Part shown: piece by piece, positions 4,489-18,722 of the stretch
How positions within the stretch are numbered: the stretch's first letter is position 1
Layout: the number at the start of each line of letters is the position of its first letter
The notes under the pieces: model-generated
Told to the model about the DNA's origin: nothing
Databases searched by the model: none
The model's input: only the letters and a program-made list of their open reading frames with translations
Made by a program: the position numbers and the translations under genes
Source: a virus
Virus record (IMG/VR): IMGVR_UViG_3300042936_000127
Coordinates: 1 to 43,755 of that record
DNA length: 43,755 bases
Direction: 5' to 3' (one strand)

Positions 4489-5345
4489 TATTTCTTAGAT
4501 TTAGCTTTAATCTTCTTCTCTTGTACTAACATTTGCTTTGTAGGCTTCTTTCCAGATCCTTTATTAGCTCTTATGTTATCCCAAAGTCCTCTTCTAGACA
4601 TAGAACCATCAGCACGTTTAATCATTCCTCCATTCTTTTTTATTACAGGTTTTACTGTTCTTAAAGAATCACTAGGATTATTTCTTATTTTAAAGTTAGC
4701 TATTTTCATAGCTGTTGCTTGATCAATAGATTTACCTTCATATTTTCTCTTACCTTCAGGTCTAGTTACTTGTTTGGTGTAAGTGTATTCGTTACCATCT
4801 TTAGTAAAAGATTCTCCATTCTGAGCACGTTTAATCATTGCACCAGCTTTAGCTTTCTTAATAGGACCACCATTTCTTCTTCTGGCCTCTCTTCTAACTC
4901 TTCTTTCACTTGCTGCTTGTGATCCAGAACATCCTGGTTTATCATTACCAATGCATCTAAGTTGACCACTATCATCCACTTCACTTTTTTTCTTACGTTC
5001 TTGTGCTGTATATATAGAATCATTTTTAGCAAGTTGCTGCTCTGTTAGTCCTGTACCCTTCACTCTTTGCTTAGTAGAAAAGTCTTTTAATAAACCTTTA
5101 AGAGAATCTTTTTCACGTACTAATTCAGGAGTCAATGGTTTACTACCAGCTTTTTTCTGAAAATCTTTAAGATTTTGTCTTAGTCTAGCTTGTTCTTTTA
5201 TGTTTGCTACTGTACTATCTCTTTTAGTCATTACAGCACCAGCCTGTGCTTTTTTGATTGTACCACCAGTCTTTAATGTACTTCCTTTAAAAGGACCCTT
5301 CTTTTTAATAAGAGGACCATTAGGAACTTTTGTTATCTTAGACAT
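4488..5345 (-). CDS. Basic repeat protein with GG-x-IK-[KR]-A motifs, 285 aa
   Basis: Unknown function. Four copies of a short motif stand out: TGGTIKKAQAG (27-36), NGGPIKKAKAG (158-168), IKRAQNG (171-177) and NGGMIKRADG (238-247). The C-terminal block after the last copy, RRGLWDNIRANKGSGKK (251-267), is a segment I have seen in other small phage proteins. Residues 45-122 look like charged coiled coil; a Cys pair sits at 131-139 (CIGNDKPGC), followed by an Arg-rich run (148-157). It overlaps the HNH gene upstream by 8 nt and the next gene downstream by 1 nt. A virion-associated nucleic-acid binding role would fit but is inference. Confidence 0.82.
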   Translation of the reverse strand: MSKITKVPNGPLIKKKGPFKGSTLKTGGTIKKAQAGAVMTKRDSTVANIKEQARLRQNLKDFQKKAGSKPLTPELVREKDSLKGLLKDFSTKQRVKGTGLTEQQLAKNDSIYTAQERKKKSEVDDSGQLRCIGNDKPGCSGSQAASERRVRREARRRNGGPIKKAKAGAMIKRAQNGESFTKDGNEYTYTKQVTRPEGKRKYEGKSIDQATAMKIANFKIRNNPSDSLRTVKPVIKKNGGMIKRADGSMSRRGLWDNIRANKGSGKKPTKQMLVQEKKIKAKSKK

Positions 5346-5961
5346 AATATTTGTTTATTTTATGAGTTATTAATCTTAATGCTTTTGGATCATTTATATG
5401 TTGTAAAGCATGACATTTTAAACAAAGTGTAATACCATTACTAAAATCAAATTGTAGCTCAGGAAATTGACTTCTATGTTTCATATGATGAGCTTGTAGA
5501 ACATCTTTATTAGTATCTCCACATAACTGACAAGTATAACCATCTCTTTCTTTAATCTTCAAAGACCATTGTTTAAGAGCAAGTTTTACATTTTTATTAT
5601 GTAAATGTTCCTTCCATTCATAATGATTAACTCCTTTATTAAATTCATTAGCACATGATTTAGAACAGAAATTATGTTTTCCTATCTTGTGTTCTTTTCT
5701 TTTAAAAGTAGTTTGACAACTGTTACAAGTTATATCAACTATATCAGAAGATTGATTTTTAACTTTACAATCATAACTGCAAAATTTAGCATCTTTATTC
5801 CATTCCTGGACTTCAAATTCTTTATTACAATCTTGACAGTTTAATATAACTCTTTTCTTTCTTGATGCTTTAGCACAATCATATCCACAATACTTACTAG
5901 CTTTTGTACCTGAGTAAGTATTATCACAATGTAAACATATTTTATCTATACGTTTAAGCAT
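5338..5961 (-). CDS. HNH homing-type endonuclease with three zinc fingers
   Basis: Predicted DNA endonuclease of 207 residues. Three tandem Cys4 finger-like units precede the nuclease: C9/C12 with C25/C29, C42/C45 with C61/C65, and C79/C82 with C99/C103. The HNH domain follows a basic helix (KQWSLKIKERDGYTC): zinc pairs C144/C147 and C180/C183, His pair H158-H159 (AHHM), Asn175 and H184. This layout is that of free-standing HNH homing enzymes of phages, in which fingers give DNA specificity. It is the only clearly mobile-type gene in the window. It lies within a run of small basic-protein genes and is fitted tightly between them (8-nt and 1-nt overlaps), so it is either long resident or replaces a spacer. 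Confidence 0.9.
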   Translation of the reverse strand: MLKRIDKICLHCDNTYSGTKASKYCGYDCAKASRKKRVILNCQDCNKEFEVQEWNKDAKFCSYDCKVKNQSSDIVDITCNSCQTTFKRKEHKIGKHNFCSKSCANEFNKGVNHYEWKEHLHNKNVKLALKQWSLKIKERDGYTCQLCGDTNKDVLQAHHMKHRSQFPELQFDFSNGITLCLKCHALQHINDPKALRLITHKINKYYV

Positions 5962-6884: not shown

Positions 6885-7943
6885 TTAATAAATTTTTGTT
6901 AATGTAAAGTTTCTTGATAGTATTGAATTACCTGCATCTGCTGTATCCCATTGTGCAGTTATTACAATTGTATTACTTATTGTTGTATCAAACGTTGTAT
7001 TATTAATTTCACTTAAGTCATATCCTTCAAATTGAGTTCCTCCATTTCTAATATAAGAAAATAATCCTCCAGATGAAATAGATGCTACTGTGGGTCCTCC
7101 TAATGTTCTAACTGTAAAGTATAAATTCATTATCCAATTCTTATTAGTTGCAGCAGCCATGTCAATTATACCAGTATCTGCAAGAAGTATTCCTGTCAGT
7201 GTTCTAACACGAACATGTAATGTTGCTGAACTTCCACAAGAAATTATACCATCTAATGCACATGTAAAAGAATCTCCAACAGAGAACCCATTTGCAGGTA
7301 CAGTAAGAGAGCCAACACCAGGCCCAATCATTGTTGTCTCTACTATTGTAGCAGTTACAGGCGTACTATCAGCTGTTTGAGCAAATAATCCAGTAAGTCC
7401 TGCAGGTCCTTGTGGTCCAACATCTCCCTGTACACCCTGTACACCCTGTACACCTTGTATTCCTTGAATTCCTTGAGGTCCTTGTTCACCTTGTGTTCCC
7501 TGTGGACCAGTAGGTCCTTGATCTCCTTGAGGACCTTTTATATCTCCAGCATCAAACCATGCTGTACCATTCCATGTCATCAAAGAACCATCACTTAATA
7601 AAATCCATGCATCTCCTATATTAGCTCCAGGAAGACTACCAGCTCCAGCATTAAATGCTGCAAGGTCTGCATAAGACCCTAAAATAGTTACAGAGTTACC
7701 TGCAGTTCCTTGAGGACCTTGATCTCCAGTTTGTCCTTGCTCACCTTGTATTCCTTGAATTCCTTGTTCACCTTTTTGACCTTGAACTCCTTGAACTCCT
7801 TGTGGACCTTCAGGACCTTGTGGACCAGGAACACCTGGACCAGCAATACTTTCTATTAATTGATCTAAATTAAGCCATCCTTTATAACCTATACAAGGTT
7901 TGCATAATTGTTGCCAGAACCCTGCTTTTATCCATGTTGCCAT
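6885..7943 (-). CDS. Collagen-like tail fibre protein with IKxGFW docking module
   Basis: A 352-residue predicted fibre. N-terminal module MATWIKAGFW...GWLNLDQLIE (1-31) is shared with the 197-aa fibre at 10287-10880. Two collagen-like Gly-x-Y tracts follow (about residues 35-81 and 137-184), rich in GPQG, GVQG and GIQG triplets, separated by a compact insert (82-136: GDAWILLSDGS, TWNGTAWFDAG) that occurs in other phage collagen-like fibres. The C-terminal beta domain (about 190-352) is unlike any other in the window and probably contacts the receptor. Triple-helical stalk formation is established for phage collagen-like proteins; receptor specificity is unknown. Cys14 and Cys17 in the module could form a trimer-linking or metal site. 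Confidence 0.9.
   Translation of the reverse strand: MATWIKAGFWQQLCKPCIGYKGWLNLDQLIESIAGPGVPGPQGPEGPQGVQGVQGQKGEQGIQGIQGEQGQTGDQGPQGTAGNSVTILGSYADLAAFNAGAGSLPGANIGDAWILLSDGSLMTWNGTAWFDAGDIKGPQGDQGPTGPQGTQGEQGPQGIQGIQGVQGVQGVQGDVGPQGPAGLTGLFAQTADSTPVTATIVETTMIGPGVGSLTVPANGFSVGDSFTCALDGIISCGSSATLHVRVRTLTGILLADTGIIDMAAATNKNWIMNLYFTVRTLGGPTVASISSGGLFSYIRNGGTQFEGYDLSEINNTTFDTTISNTIVITAQWDTADAGNSILSRNFTLTKIY
7392..7535 (-). repeat. Collagen-like Gly-x-Y codon repeat, second tract
   Basis: Coding repeat of 9-nt units, including three consecutive near-identical ACACCCTGT units on the plus strand at about 7429-7455 (GVQG on the protein). A matching first tract lies at about 7701-7841. The repeated units are prone to slippage and recombination, which could vary stalk length. 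Confidence 0.85.
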
Positions 7944-8672: not shown

Positions 8673-9107
8673 TTATGGACAATTACTACATCCAGTAATA
8701 AATGTTACAAACTTTTGTTCTGCTCCATGGTTAGCTGTTCTAACCTGACCATCATATGATATAGAGAGTTGTCCTGGTGGTAAATTACCAAATTCATTAC
8801 CTGTAAGAATAGTTGAATTACAAAAAGTTGTTCCATCACCTGATACAAAAATTACACCTCCTCCTACTCGATCACAAGCATTTGAACTCTTCTCAGCTCT
8901 ATATACTAAATCTTGAAAACGTTTAGCTTCAGATGTAGTTGTGGTAGTGGTAGTGATTGGTATATAGTTACAACATTCATTTGCATCTATTTCTTGCCAA
9001 TTACCAACCTTTGGTTTAAATGCTTGTACAATTAAACTACTTGGTATAATACGTCCTGTTCCATCAAATCTTACAAAAGCTTTAAGCTTGTTACTACTTG
9101 TTGCCAT
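8673..9107 (-). CDS. Fibre protein, FDGTGR docking module plus short tip
   Basis: A 144-residue predicted fibre. Residues 1-47 are the module LKAFVRFDGTGRIIPSS...WQEIDANECC, identical at 33 of 46 positions (hand alignment) to the 68-aa protein next door and also present in the 261-aa fibre. A Thr-only linker (residues 52-58) leads to a short C-terminal domain with five cysteines (ACDRVGGGV, FCNSTI, GCSNCP). The module recurs with different tips, so it probably anchors the protein to a common particle site. Cysteine-rich tips suggest disulphide stabilisation outside the cell. Function inferred from architecture only. Confidence 0.8.
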   Translation of the reverse strand: MATSSNKLKAFVRFDGTGRIIPSSLIVQAFKPKVGNWQEIDANECCNYIPITTTTTTTSEAKRFQDLVYRAEKSSNACDRVGGGVIFVSGDGTTFCNSTILTGNEFGNLPPGQLSISYDGQVRTANHGAEQKFVTFITGCSNCP

Positions 9108-9109
9108 GA

Positions 9110-9316
9110 TTAAGGTGCTGCTGTGGTCGTACTAGTAGTAGTTGGAGCAGCAGTTGTTGTGCTAGTGGTAGTAGGATTACAGCACTCGTATGCTGGAATC
9201 TCTTGCCATTTACCCACTTTAGGTTTGTTTTTACGTAATATAAGACTACTAGGTACAATTCTACCTGTACCATCAAACCTAACATATGCTTTTAGTGGTC
9301 TGTTATTTGTTGCCAT
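9110..9316 (-). CDS. Truncated fibre: docking module plus Thr-rich linker only
   Basis: A 68-residue protein made of the FDGTGR module (1-47) and the linker PTTTSTTTAAP repeated twice, then a stop. No C-terminal domain is present, unlike its two paralogues. The stop is 2 nt before the next gene starts. It may be a decapitated fibre that lost its tip by deletion through the repeated linker, or a natural short plug/adaptor. The module itself is intact, so it could still dock. The linker is encoded by a 30-nt unit duplicated with synonymous differences. Confidence 0.75.
   Translation of the reverse strand: MATNNRPLKAYVRFDGTGRIVPSSLILRKNKPKVGKWQEIPAYECCNPTTTSTTTAAPTTTSTTTAAP
9113..9175 (-). repeat. 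Duplicated Thr-rich linker repeat
   Basis: Two 30-nt units each encode TTTSTTTAAP, differing only at synonymous positions. Such ACN-triplet tracts also occur in the 144-, 260- and 512-residue fibres and are the likely junctions between docking modules and tips. Confidence 0.85.
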
Positions 9317-9321
9317 GATTT

Positions 9322-9456
9322 TTATTTATTTCTATTAGCCTCTGAAGCAGCTTTTGCTTCTTCACGAGTCATTCCTTCTTTAATAAAATCAGAGAATCTT
9401 TTATCTTGAGCATCTCTAATTGCTTTTTCTTCTGGAGTTACTTTTCTTATTGACAT
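9322..9456 (-). CDS. Small hypothetical protein, 44 aa
   Basis: A short frame fills the gap between two fibre genes. The product (MSIRKVTPEEKAIRDAQDKR, then FSDFIKEGMTREEAKAAS) is a charged helical peptide: two amphipathic helices joined by a Gly-Met turn. It has a typical AT-rich leader (GTTTAAAATTTAAATATC before ATG) and ends just before the leader of the 68-aa gene. Helix composition and the filled gap argue that it is real. It could be a fibre-associated adaptor or small chaperone; no evidence decides. Confidence 0.68.
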   Translation of the reverse strand: MSIRKVTPEEKAIRDAQDKRFSDFIKEGMTREEAKAASEANRNK

Positions 9457-9468
9457 GATATTTAAATT

Positions 9469-10254
9469 TTAAACGTTAACAATTACATCCCATCCTTTAC
9501 CTTCTAGGCTTGTTTTAGCTAAAAGTCCTGCAGCACTTGGAACAGCATTTGTGCCACCAACAAGTTCAACATATCCATTACTCAGACCATTATCATCAAG
9601 AGTGATGAGTATATGATCTACAGAAGCTTCTGTTAAAGCATTGTCCATCACCTCAAGATCATTCAAGTTTACACAACCTGTAATGTTTATATGTACTAAT
9701 CCTGTACCAATGTTATATAGCTGTGTAATAGTAGTGATGCCTGTAAAATCTAAAGAATTGAATTCCATATTATCACCATCCCATTCATCAATACCCTCTA
9801 GTTGATAAAGGTTACTTATTGCTACAGAATTACCAGGACCAAACCCAATTTCAAAATCTTGAAGTTGAGAAGGATTATCTATACATAGATATACAGTGTG
9901 AGGAATTACACCTTCTAAATCATATTCAAAATCATAACTTCCACCAGCAGCAAGAGAAAAACTCTCACTCACTGTAGATGTCCATTGAATACTTCCTGTT
10001 AAATTAGGTCCTCCATTATTTTTAGTATCTAATGTAAATCCATACAATCCAGTTTCACTATCTGCAACAGCTTGTATTGCTATACAGCATCTATATGAAG
10101 TTTCTGTAGAAGGTACACAGCATTCATATGCTTGTACTTCTTTCCAATTACCATTCTTAGGTTTATTACGTCTAAGTACAGTACTTCCTGGTACGATTCT
10201 ACCAGTTCCATCAAAGCGAGAATACGCTTTTAAGTCACGTTTGTTTGGTGTCAT
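9469..10254 (-). CDS. Fibre protein, FDGTGR docking module plus leucine-rich-like tip
   Basis: A 261-residue predicted fibre. Residues 1-46 are the FDGTGR module (LKAYSRFDGTGRIVPGS...AYECC). A beta domain (about 50-145) follows, with SVAISNLYQLEGIDEWD marking the start of a leucine-rich segment: FNSLDFTGITTITQLYN and LVHINITGCVNLNDLEV. The end, VDHILITLDDNGLSNGYVEL, GGTNAVPSAAG and GWDVIVNV, is a common C-terminus of phage leucine-rich tail proteins. The tip probably binds a surface ligand. It has no poly-Thr linker, unlike its paralogues. Fibre assignment is inferred from architecture and neighbourhood. Confidence 0.85.
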   Translation of the reverse strand: MTPNKRDLKAYSRFDGTGRIVPGSTVLRRNKPKNGNWKEVQAYECCVPSTETSYRCCIAIQAVADSETGLYGFTLDTKNNGGPNLTGSIQWTSTVSESFSLAAGGSYDFEYDLEGVIPHTVYLCIDNPSQLQDFEIGFGPGNSVAISNLYQLEGIDEWDGDNMEFNSLDFTGITTITQLYNIGTGLVHINITGCVNLNDLEVMDNALTEASVDHILITLDDNGLSNGYVELVGGTNAVPSAAGLLAKTSLEGKGWDVIVNV

Positions 10255-10286
10255 TTTATTTTATATTTAATTGTTAATATTTATTA

Positions 10287-11929: not shown

Positions 11930-13468
11930 TTAAACTGTTACGATTGTTACTGTATTATTTGCTTGTAGGTATTGGATATCTCCATCTGGATTACCACTAT
12001 TACAAGTCGTTAAAGCTGATGGTACTGTTAGTGTTATTGTTTTTCCAAGTATTAAAACAAATACAGCATTATCTCCTACTGTTTTACCTAAATTTATACA
12101 AGATGGTAGGTTAACTGTTGTTAATGATATACATTGGTAGAAACACCCATTACCAGCAATGGTTAAACTTGGTAAATTAATTGTTTCTACGAATGAACAA
12201 GTGCTAAAACAACCCACACCAGCAGTAATTAGTTGAGGTAAATCTACTGTTGTTAAACCAAAACAAAATATAAAACTATTATCACCTGCTGTAGTTAGTT
12301 CAGGTAAATCTACTGTTGTTAAATTCGAACACGATCTAAAACAATTATCACTAATAGTAGTTATTTGAGGTAACTCTATTGTTATTAAACCATAACACTC
12401 TACAAAACAATAAGAACCTGAATAAACAACACATCCTTGGTCTACAATTGAAACGATTTCAACTTTGTCTTTAAACTTTTCACTTATAAATGAAATATTT
12501 TCACCACCTTTTAATATTACATTGTTCCCAAAAATGGTTACACCAGTAAAAGGTATTGAACAGTAAGGAAAGTCAAAGAATGTGTTCCAATCTCCTACAT
12601 TAGTAGCATCTCCTACTAATACATCTGCAAATATGATGTCAGAAAACTCAATGGTTAAATCACCTGAATATCCTGTAAATGGTATGTAAGGTTGTCCATT
12701 TATCATTAAACTATTATTCATACCTAAATAATGTATATCTCCATCAGATGACCCATTATTATTTGTTAATAAAATAGGATTAAATGTTGCAGTTATACTG
12801 TTACTGAAGATTAAATTAAATACTTTATCATCACCAACTGTCCCACCTAAGTTTGTACAAGATGATAAATTAATTGTTGTTAATGATTTACAATAGTAGA
12901 AACAATATTCACCAGCAGTAGTTAAACTTGGTAAATTAACAGATAATGAAGGAATCTGATAACCTAAAAGAGAAAATGCATATTCGCCTGCAATTAATAA
13001 ATTAGGAAGACTCATATAACTAACATTTGTACATCCTACATAATTAGTAGATCCAAATCCACCATATTCAACTTCTACAATACAACCAGCACCATCATCT
13101 ACTTCTAATAAATATGATCCAAGTTCATCTTCTTGGTCAAATAACATTTCTTTAATAATGATGTTAGAACCTCCATAAAGTTTCACTTCATCACCTGTAA
13201 TACTAACAGATGTAAATGGTGTTCCAAATGATGGAAGATCGAAATATGTGTTCCAGTTTGCTACATTAGATGAGTCACCAACAATAGCATCCACCTGTAT
13301 TATATTAGAAAAAAGCATTCTGAGAGGTAGAATAACTGTAGTAGTAGTAGTGGTAGTAGGACAAGGTCCTGTACACATTTGAGTATTTAATATATCAAGC
13401 TGTTTTGAAATAGCCCATAATAGGTTAGCTCTTCCACTCCATCCAATTTGTTTATTTGGTATAGCCAT
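11930..13468 (-). CDS. BspA-like leucine-rich fibre protein with QIGW docking module
   Basis: A 512-residue predicted adhesin. Residues 1-31 are the QIGW module (QIGW...NLLWAISKQLD), shared with the 260- and 221-aa proteins. CTGPCP and seven Thr form the linker (32-44). Two tandem modules follow (about 47-255 and 270-512); each opens with a block like FSNIIQVDAIVGDSSNVANW / FSDIIFADVLVGDATNVGDW and ends with DGDIxYL. Inside, BspA-type repeats of about 23 residues (CFxxCxxLTTVxLPxLTTAG) recur. BspA-like repeats mediate surface binding in many organisms. It has no signal peptide, as expected for a phage virion protein. Ligand unknown. Confidence 0.88.
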   Translation of the reverse strand: MAIPNKQIGWSGRANLLWAISKQLDILNTQMCTGPCPTTTTTTTVILPLRMLFSNIIQVDAIVGDSSNVANWNTYFDLPSFGTPFTSVSITGDEVKLYGGSNIIIKEMLFDQEDELGSYLLEVDDGAGCIVEVEYGGFGSTNYVGCTNVSYMSLPNLLIAGEYAFSLLGYQIPSLSVNLPSLTTAGEYCFYYCKSLTTINLSSCTNLGGTVGDDKVFNLIFSNSITATFNPILLTNNNGSSDGDIHYLGMNNSLMINGQPYIPFTGYSGDLTIEFSDIIFADVLVGDATNVGDWNTFFDFPYCSIPFTGVTIFGNNVILKGGENISFISEKFKDKVEIVSIVDQGCVVYSGSYCFVECYGLITIELPQITTISDNCFRSCSNLTTVDLPELTTAGDNSFIFCFGLTTVDLPQLITAGVGCFSTCSFVETINLPSLTIAGNGCFYQCISLTTVNLPSCINLGKTVGDNAVFVLILGKTITLTVPSALTTCNSGNPDGDIQYLQANNTVTIVTV

Positions 13469-13477
13469 TTTTTATTT

Positions 13478-14260
13478 TTAATCTATTATACAACGAATTG
13501 ACAAACCATTCTTCTTATTGCTGGAGCCTATGCTGACATTGCTGTTGCTAGAAGACATGGATCGAGAAAAAGCAAGTGAAGCACCATTCTCTGTTGAACT
13601 CCAAAACCAAGTACTGGTGTTAAGATTGGCAAATAGACCAGAGCTAACACGAAAACCTGCTCCAAAACCTGTAAAGCCACTACTATTGATTGCTCCTGTA
13701 TTGGGAGTTTGCCAATGACACAATCCTTGTTCTTTCATTTTACCACCAGCTCCAGTTGCTCCTCCTAAAAAGTCTGTCAATGTGATCCATTCAGCATCTG
13801 TTGGAATATGTTGTCCAATAGGTGCTAATCCCCTTGGGTCATTTACTGCATACCAATTGTATAATTTACCATAAATTGTACCATTAGCAGTGTTGTTTGC
13901 ATAGTGACACCATGCACCAGTTGTTAATGCTGCCCAAGCTGCAGGGTCTGTTACTTCTGGTATTGGGTCACCATTTCTATATGTAGTTACATCTAAATTA
14001 CATTTTGTCCAAGTTTGTGTTCCTATTGTAACAGGAGCTTCAACACAATTTAAACAAGTTGTTGTTGATGTGGTCGTTGTTGTTGTAGGTGGTAATGTAG
14101 TTGATGTAGTAGTGGTAGTAGGAGTTGGTGTAGTGGTAGTGGTAGTAGTAGGGCAAGGACCAGTGCAAATAATAGAATTCATCCTATCAAGTTGTTTTGA
14201 TATTTCCCATAAGAGATTATCTTCTTGAGACCAACCTATTTGTCTATTACCTATTGCCAT
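13478..14260 (-). CDS. FISUMP-domain fibre tip with QIGW module, candidate variable region
   Basis: A 260-residue predicted fibre. Residues 1-30 are the QIGW module; CTGPCP and a long Thr/Pro linker (37-68) follow. Residues 73-258 read as the Fibrobacter succinogenes major paralogous domain (C-type lectin-like): IGTQTWTKCNLDV, IYGKLYNWYAVND, HIPTDAEWITLTDFLGG, FWSSTENG and SIRCIID are the family blocks. Such domains are known targets of diversity-generating retroelements. Codons for residues 238-248 (AGC AAC AGC AAT GTC AGC ATA GGC TCC AGC AAT) end in C eight times of eleven, unusual in this AT-rich genome, as expected if AAC codons were mutagenised. No reverse transcriptase is in the window. 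Confidence 0.87.
   Translation of the reverse strand: MAIGNRQIGWSQEDNLLWEISKQLDRMNSIICTGPCPTTTTTTTPTPTTTTTSTTLPPTTTTTTSTTTCLNCVEAPVTIGTQTWTKCNLDVTTYRNGDPIPEVTDPAAWAALTTGAWCHYANNTANGTIYGKLYNWYAVNDPRGLAPIGQHIPTDAEWITLTDFLGGATGAGGKMKEQGLCHWQTPNTGAINSSGFTGFGAGFRVSSGLFANLNTSTWFWSSTENGASLAFSRSMSSSNSNVSIGSSNKKNGLSIRCIID
14057..14152 (-). repeat. Thr/Pro-rich linker triplet repeat
   Basis: A 96-nt tract of mostly ACA/ACT/ACC triplets encodes residues 37-68 of the FISUMP fibre (PTTTTTTTPTPTT, LPPTTTTTTSTTT). It is a microsatellite-like sequence that could slip or recombine with similar linkers in the 512-, 144- and 68-residue fibre genes. Confidence 0.85.
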
Positions 14261-15710: not shown

Positions 15711-16997
15711 TTAAATATTATATGATGCTAGTTGTGCACCAGTTGTTGCCACTGTACTAGCATTCTGTAATCTATCACCAATACTGTTTGCTACAAACCC
15801 TGATGATATTAAGTAGTTCCAACACTGAGCAGGTGTCATAAGTAATGTACCTACAGTGTTATCTACTAAAACTCCTTGTAATACATTTGCTGCAGATGGA
15901 ACTCTCATTGTTCCTGTTAACTCATTTGATGCACCATAAATAGTGCCAAATCTAACATCACCTACTATAGGATTACCTAATGGTACTCCAGCTGCATATA
16001 AAATCCTATCTCCTCCAGTTGATATTTGAAATAACCAGCTAGAAGTATTACTATCAATAGTAACTCTAGGAGCAACAACAGCCATGTTATTTAATGTGTT
16101 TATAACATTTCCACTTATTTTTACATAGGTTGCTGAAGCATACCCACTTGTTAAAGCAAAATTTGAATAAATAGCAGGTGCTCCAAAACCTACTGTAACT
16201 ATTCCTGTAACTGAAATACTAGCTGCTGCTGTACCATTTATAATAGCTGGTTGAGTAGTTCCTCCTGTAACATTGCCAATTACATTAACTGCTCCTCCTG
16301 TTGTAAATACTGATGGTGAAGTTGATGATAATAAATTTCCAGTAACATTAAATGTTCCTGCATTAACAGCAACAACAGAAGCACCTATTCCTGCACTTGT
16401 GCTATTTGAAGTTATATTTCCTGTACAGTTTACAACAGCTCCAGTTGCAGTACTTGTAATTGTAATAATAGCATTATTATTTGCATTTGCACTATTATTA
16501 ATTAAATTTCCTACAACATTGACTGTTCCATTACCAGTAACTTGAATAATATTTTTATTATTACTTCCAGAACCACCTCCATAATCAGTTGTAAAACTAC
16601 CATTTATATTTAAAGTGCCAGTACCTGATGATCTTATACCTGCTGTTGCTGTTGCTATAAGAGTACCAGAACTAACTAAAGAACTTCCATTAAATGTGGC
16701 TGTATTACCAGCAGCTAATGTCATTTCAATAACTGCCAAAGATGCTATTCCAGAATAAAAAGGAATTGTTGCAGTACAAGTTAGATTACCATTGTTTGCA
16801 TATATAAATTGACCACCCACTGTAATTACTGGAGAAGCCAATGCTGTGTTTCTAACTGATAATACAGTGAATGTGCCATCAATAGTAACAGTAAATGTAT
16901 TAGCATACACGTCATCTGCACTTGTTGGTACAGTACCTCCATTCCAAGTAGCTCCACTACTCCAGTTACCAGATGCCACTGCATATCTTACTGCCAT
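15711..16997 (-). CDS. Beta-helix fibre protein, GNW/ADDVYAN module (short form)
   Basis: A 428-residue predicted fibre, paralogue of the 570-aa protein upstream. The N-terminus (SGNWSSGATWNGGTVPTSAD, then DVYANTFTVTIDG) is a G8-like module: a tryptophan-rich strand, a Val-Pro turn and an Asp-Asp before repeated strands. The middle (60-270) is a Val/Thr/Asn/Gly-rich series of short strands (NVTGNLLSS, INVTGNV-type units), as in right-handed beta-helices. The last about 170 residues are nearly the same as in the paralogue (SSWLFQISTGGDR, GDRLQNASTVATTG, ASYNI at the end). It lacks the discoidin-like insert of the long form. Confidence 0.85.
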   Translation of the reverse strand: MAVRYAVASGNWSSGATWNGGTVPTSADDVYANTFTVTIDGTFTVLSVRNTALASPVITVGGQFIYANNGNLTCTATIPFYSGIASLAVIEMTLAAGNTATFNGSSLVSSGTLIATATAGIRSSGTGTLNINGSFTTDYGGGSGSNNKNIIQVTGNGTVNVVGNLINNSANANNNAIITITSTATGAVVNCTGNITSNSTSAGIGASVVAVNAGTFNVTGNLLSSTSPSVFTTGGAVNVIGNVTGGTTQPAIINGTAAASISVTGIVTVGFGAPAIYSNFALTSGYASATYVKISGNVINTLNNMAVVAPRVTIDSNTSSWLFQISTGGDRILYAAGVPLGNPIVGDVRFGTIYGASNELTGTMRVPSAANVLQGVLVDNTVGTLLMTPAQCWNYLISSGFVANSIGDRLQNASTVATTGAQLASYNI

Positions 16998-17009
16998 AAT
17001 TAAATATTT

Positions 17010-18722
17010 TTATATATTATAACTTGCTATTTGACCTCCTGTTGTTGCTACTGTAGCAGCATTTTGTAATCTGTCTCCAATACTATCAGTAGTGAAACCA
17101 CTTGAAATTAAATAATTCCAAAAGTCTGCTGGTGTCATTAATAGTGTTCCTGTTGTTGCATCAGTTAATACACCTAATAGCACTGTTGCAGGTATAGGCA
17201 TAGCTAATGTACCTGTAAGTTCACTTGATGCCCCATATACTGTGCCAAGTCTAACATCTCCTATTGCAGGATTACCTAAAGGCACACCTGCTGCATATAA
17301 TGTTCTGTTACCACCTGTACTTATTTGAAATAACCAACTTGATGTATTTGTGTCTATTGTCACTCTTGGTGCTACAATAGCCATAACATTATTTGTATTA
17401 ACTACATTGCCTGATACCTTCACAAAAGTACCTGACGCATATCCTGACGTAAGAGCAAATGATGAATATATCGCTGGTCCTCCTGTGCCTGCTGTAATTA
17501 TTCCTGTTACTGATATTGTAGCAGCTGTTGTTATATTAAAAATAGCTGCTTGAGCTGTTGAACCATTTACGTTCCCTATTTGTGTATAATTAACTGCTCC
17601 AAATAATGCAACAGCTGGTGATGTTACTCCTGTTGTATTTCCTGTAATATTTATATTTCCAGAACTTGCAAAAACAGGACTTGATGATGTGGCTGGATTT
17701 GTAGAACCTGTAACATTACCAGTTATATTAATAGTCCCTCCAGTATTCATTACTAAAGTATTAATATTATTACCTGCATTATTAGTAGAAGTAAGATTAC
17801 CAACAATATTAAGCGTACCTGTAAGTGTTACTGAAATCATTGATCTACCAGTAGTACCATCAATACTATAATTACCATTCAGATTTAATGTTCCTGTACT
17901 TGAATGCCTGATAGCAAAAAAACTACCAGTATTTGTAAGAGTTAACATGCTACCAGTAAAAGTACCTATATTTGGACTTGGTAAAGTCATTTCTAAAACT
18001 GGGACTGATGCTGCTCCTACAACAATAGCAGGAGAAGAAGTACAAGTTAAATCACCTCCATTAGCATATATGAATTGCCCTCCTGCTGCGCCTCCATATA
18101 CACTAGCTGTAGATTCTGTTAATTCAAATTCTCCAATAGTTGGTGGTGTTCCTGCTGATACTACAGCTGTTATGTTTATTCTGTAATATGTATAAGATGT
18201 TATATTAGCTAAAACACTACTTACATAATTACCACCTAATGATATTACAGCACCTGTAACTGTATCTAATGTTGTATAAGAAATACCATCATTTGAACCT
18301 TGGAATGTCCAAGCAGTTGGAAATGATAATGTAGTAGAACTAATCATTCTAAGAATATATCTCTTTATAACTTTTCCACTTGGAAATTGATAACCTAATG
18401 TTCCTGTATTACCTGTACCTGATTGCCAAAATGTAGTGTTAGAATCTTGAGAAAAAGCATTCCAAGAAAGGTTAGCTCCAGTTTGAGAAGATGCAAAAAC
18501 TATCCCACTTGGAGTGCTATTAGAAGTCATTGCAGGAGTTGCAATATTAGGAATAGAAATAGGAGAAGCTGTATTTCTTATAGTCTGTACTGTATATGTT
18601 CCATTTATGGTAACAGTAAAGTTATTTGCATATAGATCATCAGCAGTTGTTGGAACAACACCATTGTCCCAAATTGCTGGATTATTAAAATTACCTGTAG
18701 CTACTGCAAATCTTATTGGCAT
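17010..18722 (-). CDS. Beta-helix fibre protein with inserted F5/8C discoidin-like domain (long form)
   Basis: A 570-residue predicted fibre. N-terminal GNW/ADDLYAN module (1-52) and C-terminal region match the 428-aa paralogue. Residues about 58-205 are an extra domain that reads as a discoidin (F5/8 type C) carbohydrate-binding fold: AFSQDSNTTFWQSGTG, LGYQFPSGKVIKRYIL, FPTAWTFQGSNDG, then YRINI and GEFEL at its end. After it the paralogous sequence resumes (GGQFIYANGGDLTC). A binding domain has thus been inserted into, or lost from, otherwise similar fibres. F5/8C domains commonly bind sugars; the target here is unknown. Confidence 0.87.
   Translation of the reverse strand: MPIRFAVATGNFNNPAIWDNGVVPTTADDLYANNFTVTINGTYTVQTIRNTASPISIPNIATPAMTSNSTPSGIVFASSQTGANLSWNAFSQDSNTTFWQSGTGNTGTLGYQFPSGKVIKRYILRMISSTTLSFPTAWTFQGSNDGISYTTLDTVTGAVISLGGNYVSSVLANITSYTYYRINITAVVSAGTPPTIGEFELTESTASVYGGAAGGQFIYANGGDLTCTSSPAIVVGAASVPVLEMTLPSPNIGTFTGSMLTLTNTGSFFAIRHSSTGTLNLNGNYSIDGTTGRSMISVTLTGTLNIVGNLTSTNNAGNNINTLVMNTGGTINITGNVTGSTNPATSSSPVFASSGNINITGNTTGVTSPAVALFGAVNYTQIGNVNGSTAQAAIFNITTAATISVTGIITAGTGGPAIYSSFALTSGYASGTFVKVSGNVVNTNNVMAIVAPRVTIDTNTSSWLFQISTGGNRTLYAAGVPLGNPAIGDVRLGTVYGASSELTGTLAMPIPATVLLGVLTDATTGTLLMTPADFWNYLISSGFTTDSIGDRLQNAATVATTGGQIASYNI

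Follow-up and report, generated by a model that had tools for sequence, protein, structure and literature searches.

A FISUMP fibre tip of a putative crAss-like phage, probably captured from a bacterial diversity-generating retroelement and since decaying

The tip of a 260-aa fibre protein, the presumed receptor-binding protein of an apparently crAss-like phage, is probably a captured and decaying variable repeat of a diversity-generating retroelement (DGR) and not the live target of a DGR belonging to the phage. Four observations bear on this reading: a signature of C-ending codons in the tail of the protein, the register of this tail with bacterial DGR templates, the absence of a reverse transcriptase (RT) and of a template in 96.8 kb of the phage genome, and a graded series of corresponding tails in related phages. 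The first-pass annotation had proposed that the tip might be a DGR target. The part of that proposal concerning origin stands, supported by a gap-free template register with C kept on AAC codons; the part concerning a live target does not, given the missing RT and template, the changes at non-adenine positions and a diverged 3' end.

The window, that is, the whole stretch of DNA analysed, is a 43,755-base IMG/VR record in which Rfam and tRNA scans gave no matches. Its giant proteins match mainly those of crAss-like phages and the DNA-polymerase relatives of the phage are 100-117 kb long; from its large virion and RNA-polymerase-region protein matches and its genome size, the phage would be placed in the Crassvirales. 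The fibre (Table 1) consists of an N-terminal module (about residues 1-35), a Thr-rich linker (37-68) and a FISUMP domain (69-260). The C-terminal FISUMP domain, previously read from the translation, is borne out by a match of Pfam Fib_succ_major (PF09603) to residues 77-258 (E=1e-41; 143.7 bits against a curated cut-off of 33.9), and the structure model of residues 69-260 is confident (pLDDT 95). A PDB fold search with this model gave no significant match, the best being 4eps (E=0.25), followed by several C-type lectins at E>0.4, so that the lectin fold is taken from the family and the literature (PMC4159848, PMC8144416); 4eps is a Bacteroides fimbrial protein that has been superimposed on a DGR target (PMC4159848). 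Receptor binding is likewise suggested by the fibre context and the literature (PMC8144416, PMC8143477).

Table 1. Features of the fibre locus in the window
Feature	Position	Strand	Evidence
FISUMP fibre gene, 260 aa	13478..14260	minus	ORF; PF09603; structure model; N-terminal module common to both neighbours
Variable-repeat-like tail, residues 210-257	13490..13633	minus	gap-free alignment to 20 bacterial FISUMP-DGR templates
C-ending codon run, residues 232-247, read as a probable fossil of template AAC codons	13520..13567	minus	9/16 codons ending in C; template register
3' end ATT CGT TGT ATA ATA GAT TAA, putative diverged homing region	13478..13507	minus	sequence comparison
Companion fibre gene, 512 aa, BspA-type leucine-rich repeats (LRR)	11930..13468	minus	PF13306 E=3e-28
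Upstream fibre gene, 221 aa	14280..14945	minus	N-terminal module 56% identity over residues 1-32

Codons 238-248 read AGC AAC AGC AAT GTC AGC ATA GGC TCC AGC AAT, with 8 of the 11 ending in C, exactly as counted in the first pass, which had also called the run atypical for the genome. The wider comparison agrees: 9 of the 16 codons at residues 232-247 end in C, against a background of 6.0% across the 13,783 other codons of the window, and this count is the highest among 13,305 sliding 16-codon windows, the next gene reaching 6 (binomial P=8e-8; about 0.001 after correction). The serine codons of the tail are AGC or TCC in 6 of 9 cases versus 4% elsewhere (p=5e-7). In the rest of the FISUMP domain the frequency of C at third positions (C3) is 0.09; the anomaly is therefore restricted to the tail, and a domain-wide codon bias can be ruled out.

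FISUMP proteins form a reported class of cellular DGR targets (PMC4159848). A pattern with adenine at the variable positions (GCNTGGAACCGCAACHTGAA), scanned against 84,980 bacterial and archaeal species genomes, recovered 29 loci, about 20 of which are FISUMP template repeats (with translations such as FNNIGNNGNWWSSTENNTNNAWNRNLNYNNGNVNRNNNNKKNGFSVRCLRD) in records titled Flavobacterium, other Bacteroidota, Fibrobacteres and CPR. For 15 of these approximately 20 templates a DGR-type RT (GLPIGNLTSQ, YVDD) lies about 0.8 kb downstream, and several of those with no RT in sight are located at contig or locus ends. At the loci with the target gene within reach, template and target differ at 0-7 of 61-70 non-adenine sites and show 15-24 adenine changes, the best pairs being identical through the 3' end CGTTGCCTCAGGGATT. 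These pairs are genuine DGRs and served as positive controls. Further matches were found in 16 genomes among 395 of one class, several of them with an RT. The cellular FISUMP DGR family with an RT near the template (L223, L226-L229, L232, L235, L236, L238, L241-L243, L247-L249, L264, L265, L268, L276, L282) is widespread, occurring in Bacteroidota, Fibrobacteres and CPR records.

The tail of the window's fibre (WFWSSTENGASLAFSRSMSSSNSNVSIGSSNKKNGLSIRCIID) aligns codon by codon, with zero gaps, to a template of this class (NWWSSTENNTNNAWNRNLNYNNGNVNRNNNNKKNGFSVRCLRD). The third bases of template AAC codons are kept as expected of a relic, C3 being retained at 6/10 template AAC columns versus 3/24 other columns (Fisher p=0.009). 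In the structure model the template-AAC positions alternate along the strands at model residues 161-168 and 174-180, an arrangement which, taken from the model's secondary-structure line, would be expected of one exposed face. The mismatches are not confined to adenines as closely as in the bacterial pairs: 22/45 adenine but also 17/57 non-adenine positions (30%) differ from the best bacterial template, the phage's own template being possibly another. At the 3' end, the homing region of the bacterial repeats (GTT CGT TGC CTC AGG GAT T) faces the diverged counterpart given in Table 1, and a bacterial-type IMH homing site was not found there (ATTCGTTGTATAATAGATT, versus GTTCGTTGCCTCAGGGATT in the bacterial repeats). 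This dissimilarity of phage 3' ends from the bacterial homing region counts against the known bacterial templates as the source of any direct homing. No donor was found for the window's tail, the only sisters of its AFxR...NVxIG backbone being the same phage and L055/L298. Because the register test is modest and the non-adenine divergence high, descent from a template is deduced mainly from fresher relatives.

These relatives came from a scan of viral contigs that returned 79 loci, one from the same phage; in the remaining loci the best segments are 41-63% identical. Among 71 distinct phage FISUMP tails, about 15, the window's included, have a C3 of 0.47-0.65, compared with about 0.08 across the other parts of the domain, and many others have 0.00-0.12 at the same place. 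The C-rich tails have a common backbone, for example GCC TGG nnC CGC nnC CTG, with NNC codons between. The freshest tail, on the L046 contig, mismatches its template at 3/55 non-adenine positions (5%), nine more do so at 9-14% and the most decayed at up to 65%; ten phage tails thus agree with bacterial templates at 86-95% of the non-adenine sites. This series bears on the best-surviving alternative, according to which the tip is a Ser/Asn-rich loop of an ordinary lectin, with chance or locally imported codon usage and no DGR history. The alternative could accommodate the many non-adenine differences from the nearest template and a register test reaching just p=0.009, and FISUMP tails vary anyway, for ligand binding; it does not, however, account well for the tail being the window's densest C3 run, nor for the C-poor relatives, which under the same protein constraint have C at only 0-2 of 10 template AAC columns, against 7-10 in the fresh DGR-like tails. 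Ordinary lectin variation is for these reasons considered rather unlikely.

More than one source is suggested by the fresh tails, some of which go with an L240-like and others with an L223-like template lineage. In the phages that carry fresh tails, the scaffold has about 60-68% nucleotide identity to bacterial FISUMP genes and its third positions match at 0.42-0.54, meaning that it is saturated, whereas in the tails the third positions that face a non-adenine template base agree with the better template at 0.78-0.91. In a tree of the scaffold without the tail, which has few well-supported branches, the C-rich tails need 14 changes, versus 14.1 with shuffled labels, so a single vertical origin is not favoured. 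Taken together, conserved tail third positions on a saturated scaffold and unclustered labels indicate that tail and scaffold seem to have separate histories, the tail being exchanged or rewritten on its own. A young-looking tail is not necessarily a young transfer, since RNA function may keep templates conserved. One related contig carries two tandem FISUMP genes (L009:10001-11202) whose tails both have their match in one bacterial template lineage and differ in their adenine-position changes.

In the proposed course of events, the last approximately 50 residues would descend from a variable repeat generated via mutagenic retrohoming from an AAC-rich, Bacteroidota-type FISUMP DGR template. 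Phages of the group would repeatedly acquire such tails, most likely through recombination with host-type DGR target genes, each captured tail being placed onto an older phage FISUMP scaffold and yielding a new receptor-binding surface with no need of a phage-borne RT. Ordinary mutation would follow, the tail drifting back toward the AT-rich codon usage of the phage, a path along which the window's tail would be about half-way. Both the capture by recombination and the fresh-to-decayed direction of the series are what we infer from the tails compared here.

A different possibility is that aquatic crAss-like phages carry the variable repeat only and let the DGRs of their hosts, with template and RT, rewrite the tail-fibre tip in trans during infection. 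Templates and RTs of exactly this class are present in Bacteroidota genomes, and some tails are 95% identical to templates at non-adenine positions while sitting on phage scaffolds, the mosaic expected of trans-homing. In addition, two contigs closely related to the window's phage, L072 (whose terminase is 90% identical) and L074, are distinguished over about 5.2 kb by just three positions, which fall within four bases (L072:10452-10455) and all lie opposite template adenines (AGC GTC versus AAC TAC), with no RT in the contig. The difference could reflect recent DGR mutagenesis, which it resembles, or else assembly mixing or recombination; it suggests that positions opposite template adenines are still changing in close relatives and to that extent counts against decay as the whole story. 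Against rewriting in trans, the bacterial 3' homing region is missing from the phage tails, and the window's tail, itself far decayed, has the same sequence in two strains of the phage that have 10 differences at 16,195 sites elsewhere. Tails are likewise identical among four strains of a relative with a fresh tail (L020/L021/L023/L024), which diverge by up to about 1% elsewhere. On this evidence, rewriting by host DGRs is regarded as improbable.

The first-pass annotation had seen neither an RT nor a template repeat in the window, and profile, motif and repeat searches gave the same result. Its suggestion that both be sought elsewhere in the genome could be followed in two further records of the same phage: G001 (99.94% identical over 16.2 kb), which adds 4.05 kb to the left of the window, and G041 (99.994% over 16.7 kb), which adds 48.9 kb to the right. 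The combined 96.8 kb contain no RVT_1 (PF00078) match and no DGR-RT motif, and an adenine-tolerant template search over them found nothing above noise. The remaining approximately 15 kb are spanned by the congener G049, whose DNA polymerase is 92% identical to that of the window's phage, and in which no RT was found. RVT_1 was above cut-off in none of more than 60 further related phage records, a good many of which are 100-117 kb long; as a positive control, the search detected the RT in 4/4 DGR-bearing bacteria. Viral contigs were also scanned with two patterns made from templates and with the translation of one template, a scan that may have lost Asn-rich templates to BLAST's complexity filter. 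Apart from chance matches, these scans gave one FISUMP gene and a single variable-repeat gene present in two records (L121/L122), and no template with an RT. Since the lack of an RT and template was part of what the first-pass annotation itself had named as speaking against its proposal, the live reading fails, save for a possible host-encoded DGR. A live target of a phage-encoded DGR sited in the 15 kb outside the covered sequence, conceivable because some crAss-like phages of the gut do have complete cassettes (PMC7290462), is extremely improbable and was rejected, as G049 is colinear across that stretch and no related record searched has an RT.

That FISUMP domains are DGR targets and that crAss-like phages contain incomplete DGR cassettes is already known, the latter having been reported in 66/91 gut crAss-like genomes (PMC7290462). 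The cellular Fib_succ_major DGRs of Bacteroidota and neighbours (PMC4159848) share with the window's fibre the Pfam domain, a C-terminal variable region, the gap-free codon register with a template and the C kept at AAC columns. In Flavobacterium sp. CYK-55 (L242) template and RT lie beside the target, 0 of 63 non-adenine sites are mismatched and the 3' homing region is intact, whereas none of these features was found in the phage, with its 30% non-adenine mismatch. The DGR cassettes of crAssphage LMMB and kin (PMC7290462) likewise target a fibre protein of crAss-like phages, but there the cassette is phage-encoded and the target is a tail-collar fibre protein; the window's phage has a FISUMP target, and no phage RT or template was found among the relatives searched. 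In Bacteroides uniformis (Bacuni) phages (PMC8143477), DUF1566/Fib_succ_major proteins are also DGR targets, in this case of a DGR carried in the phage's own genome, of which the window's phage shows none. No description of the FISUMP class in aquatic relatives, of bacterial source templates or of graded decay was found in the literature searched. A series of phage tails matching bacterial templates and graded from near-intact to fully decayed, in phages with no RT seen, appears to be new. If the proposed reading is true, phages would take binding surfaces that are already diversified from the targets of bacterial DGRs, and variation in host range could outlast the DGR or do without it. A simple screen for fossil variable repeats in AT-rich phages would then be to look for C-ending codons that line up with the AAC columns of a template.

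The surroundings of the fibre gene are rich in reused modules. The N-terminal module MAIxxRQIGW recurs in three adjacent genes, including the FISUMP and LRR pair, whose modules are 73% identical over residues 1-45. In G049 the upstream 221-aa gene is kept and neither the FISUMP nor the LRR gene is present between flanking genes colinear with those of the window, so the pair constitutes an accessory fibre module (11930-14260). A second reused fibre N-terminal module (RFDGTGRIxP...) is found in three successive genes at 8673-10258, their DNA being 61-70% identical, and two paralogous fibre-like proteins of 428 and 570 aa are encoded at 15711-18722 (DNA 72% identical over 300 bases). The fibre cluster also includes a collagen-repeat protein (6885-7943; PF01391, E=2e-17), and an HNH-endonuclease-like protein, recognised by eye from a HHMKHRSQFPEL...CLKCH motif, lies amid structural genes at 5338-5961.
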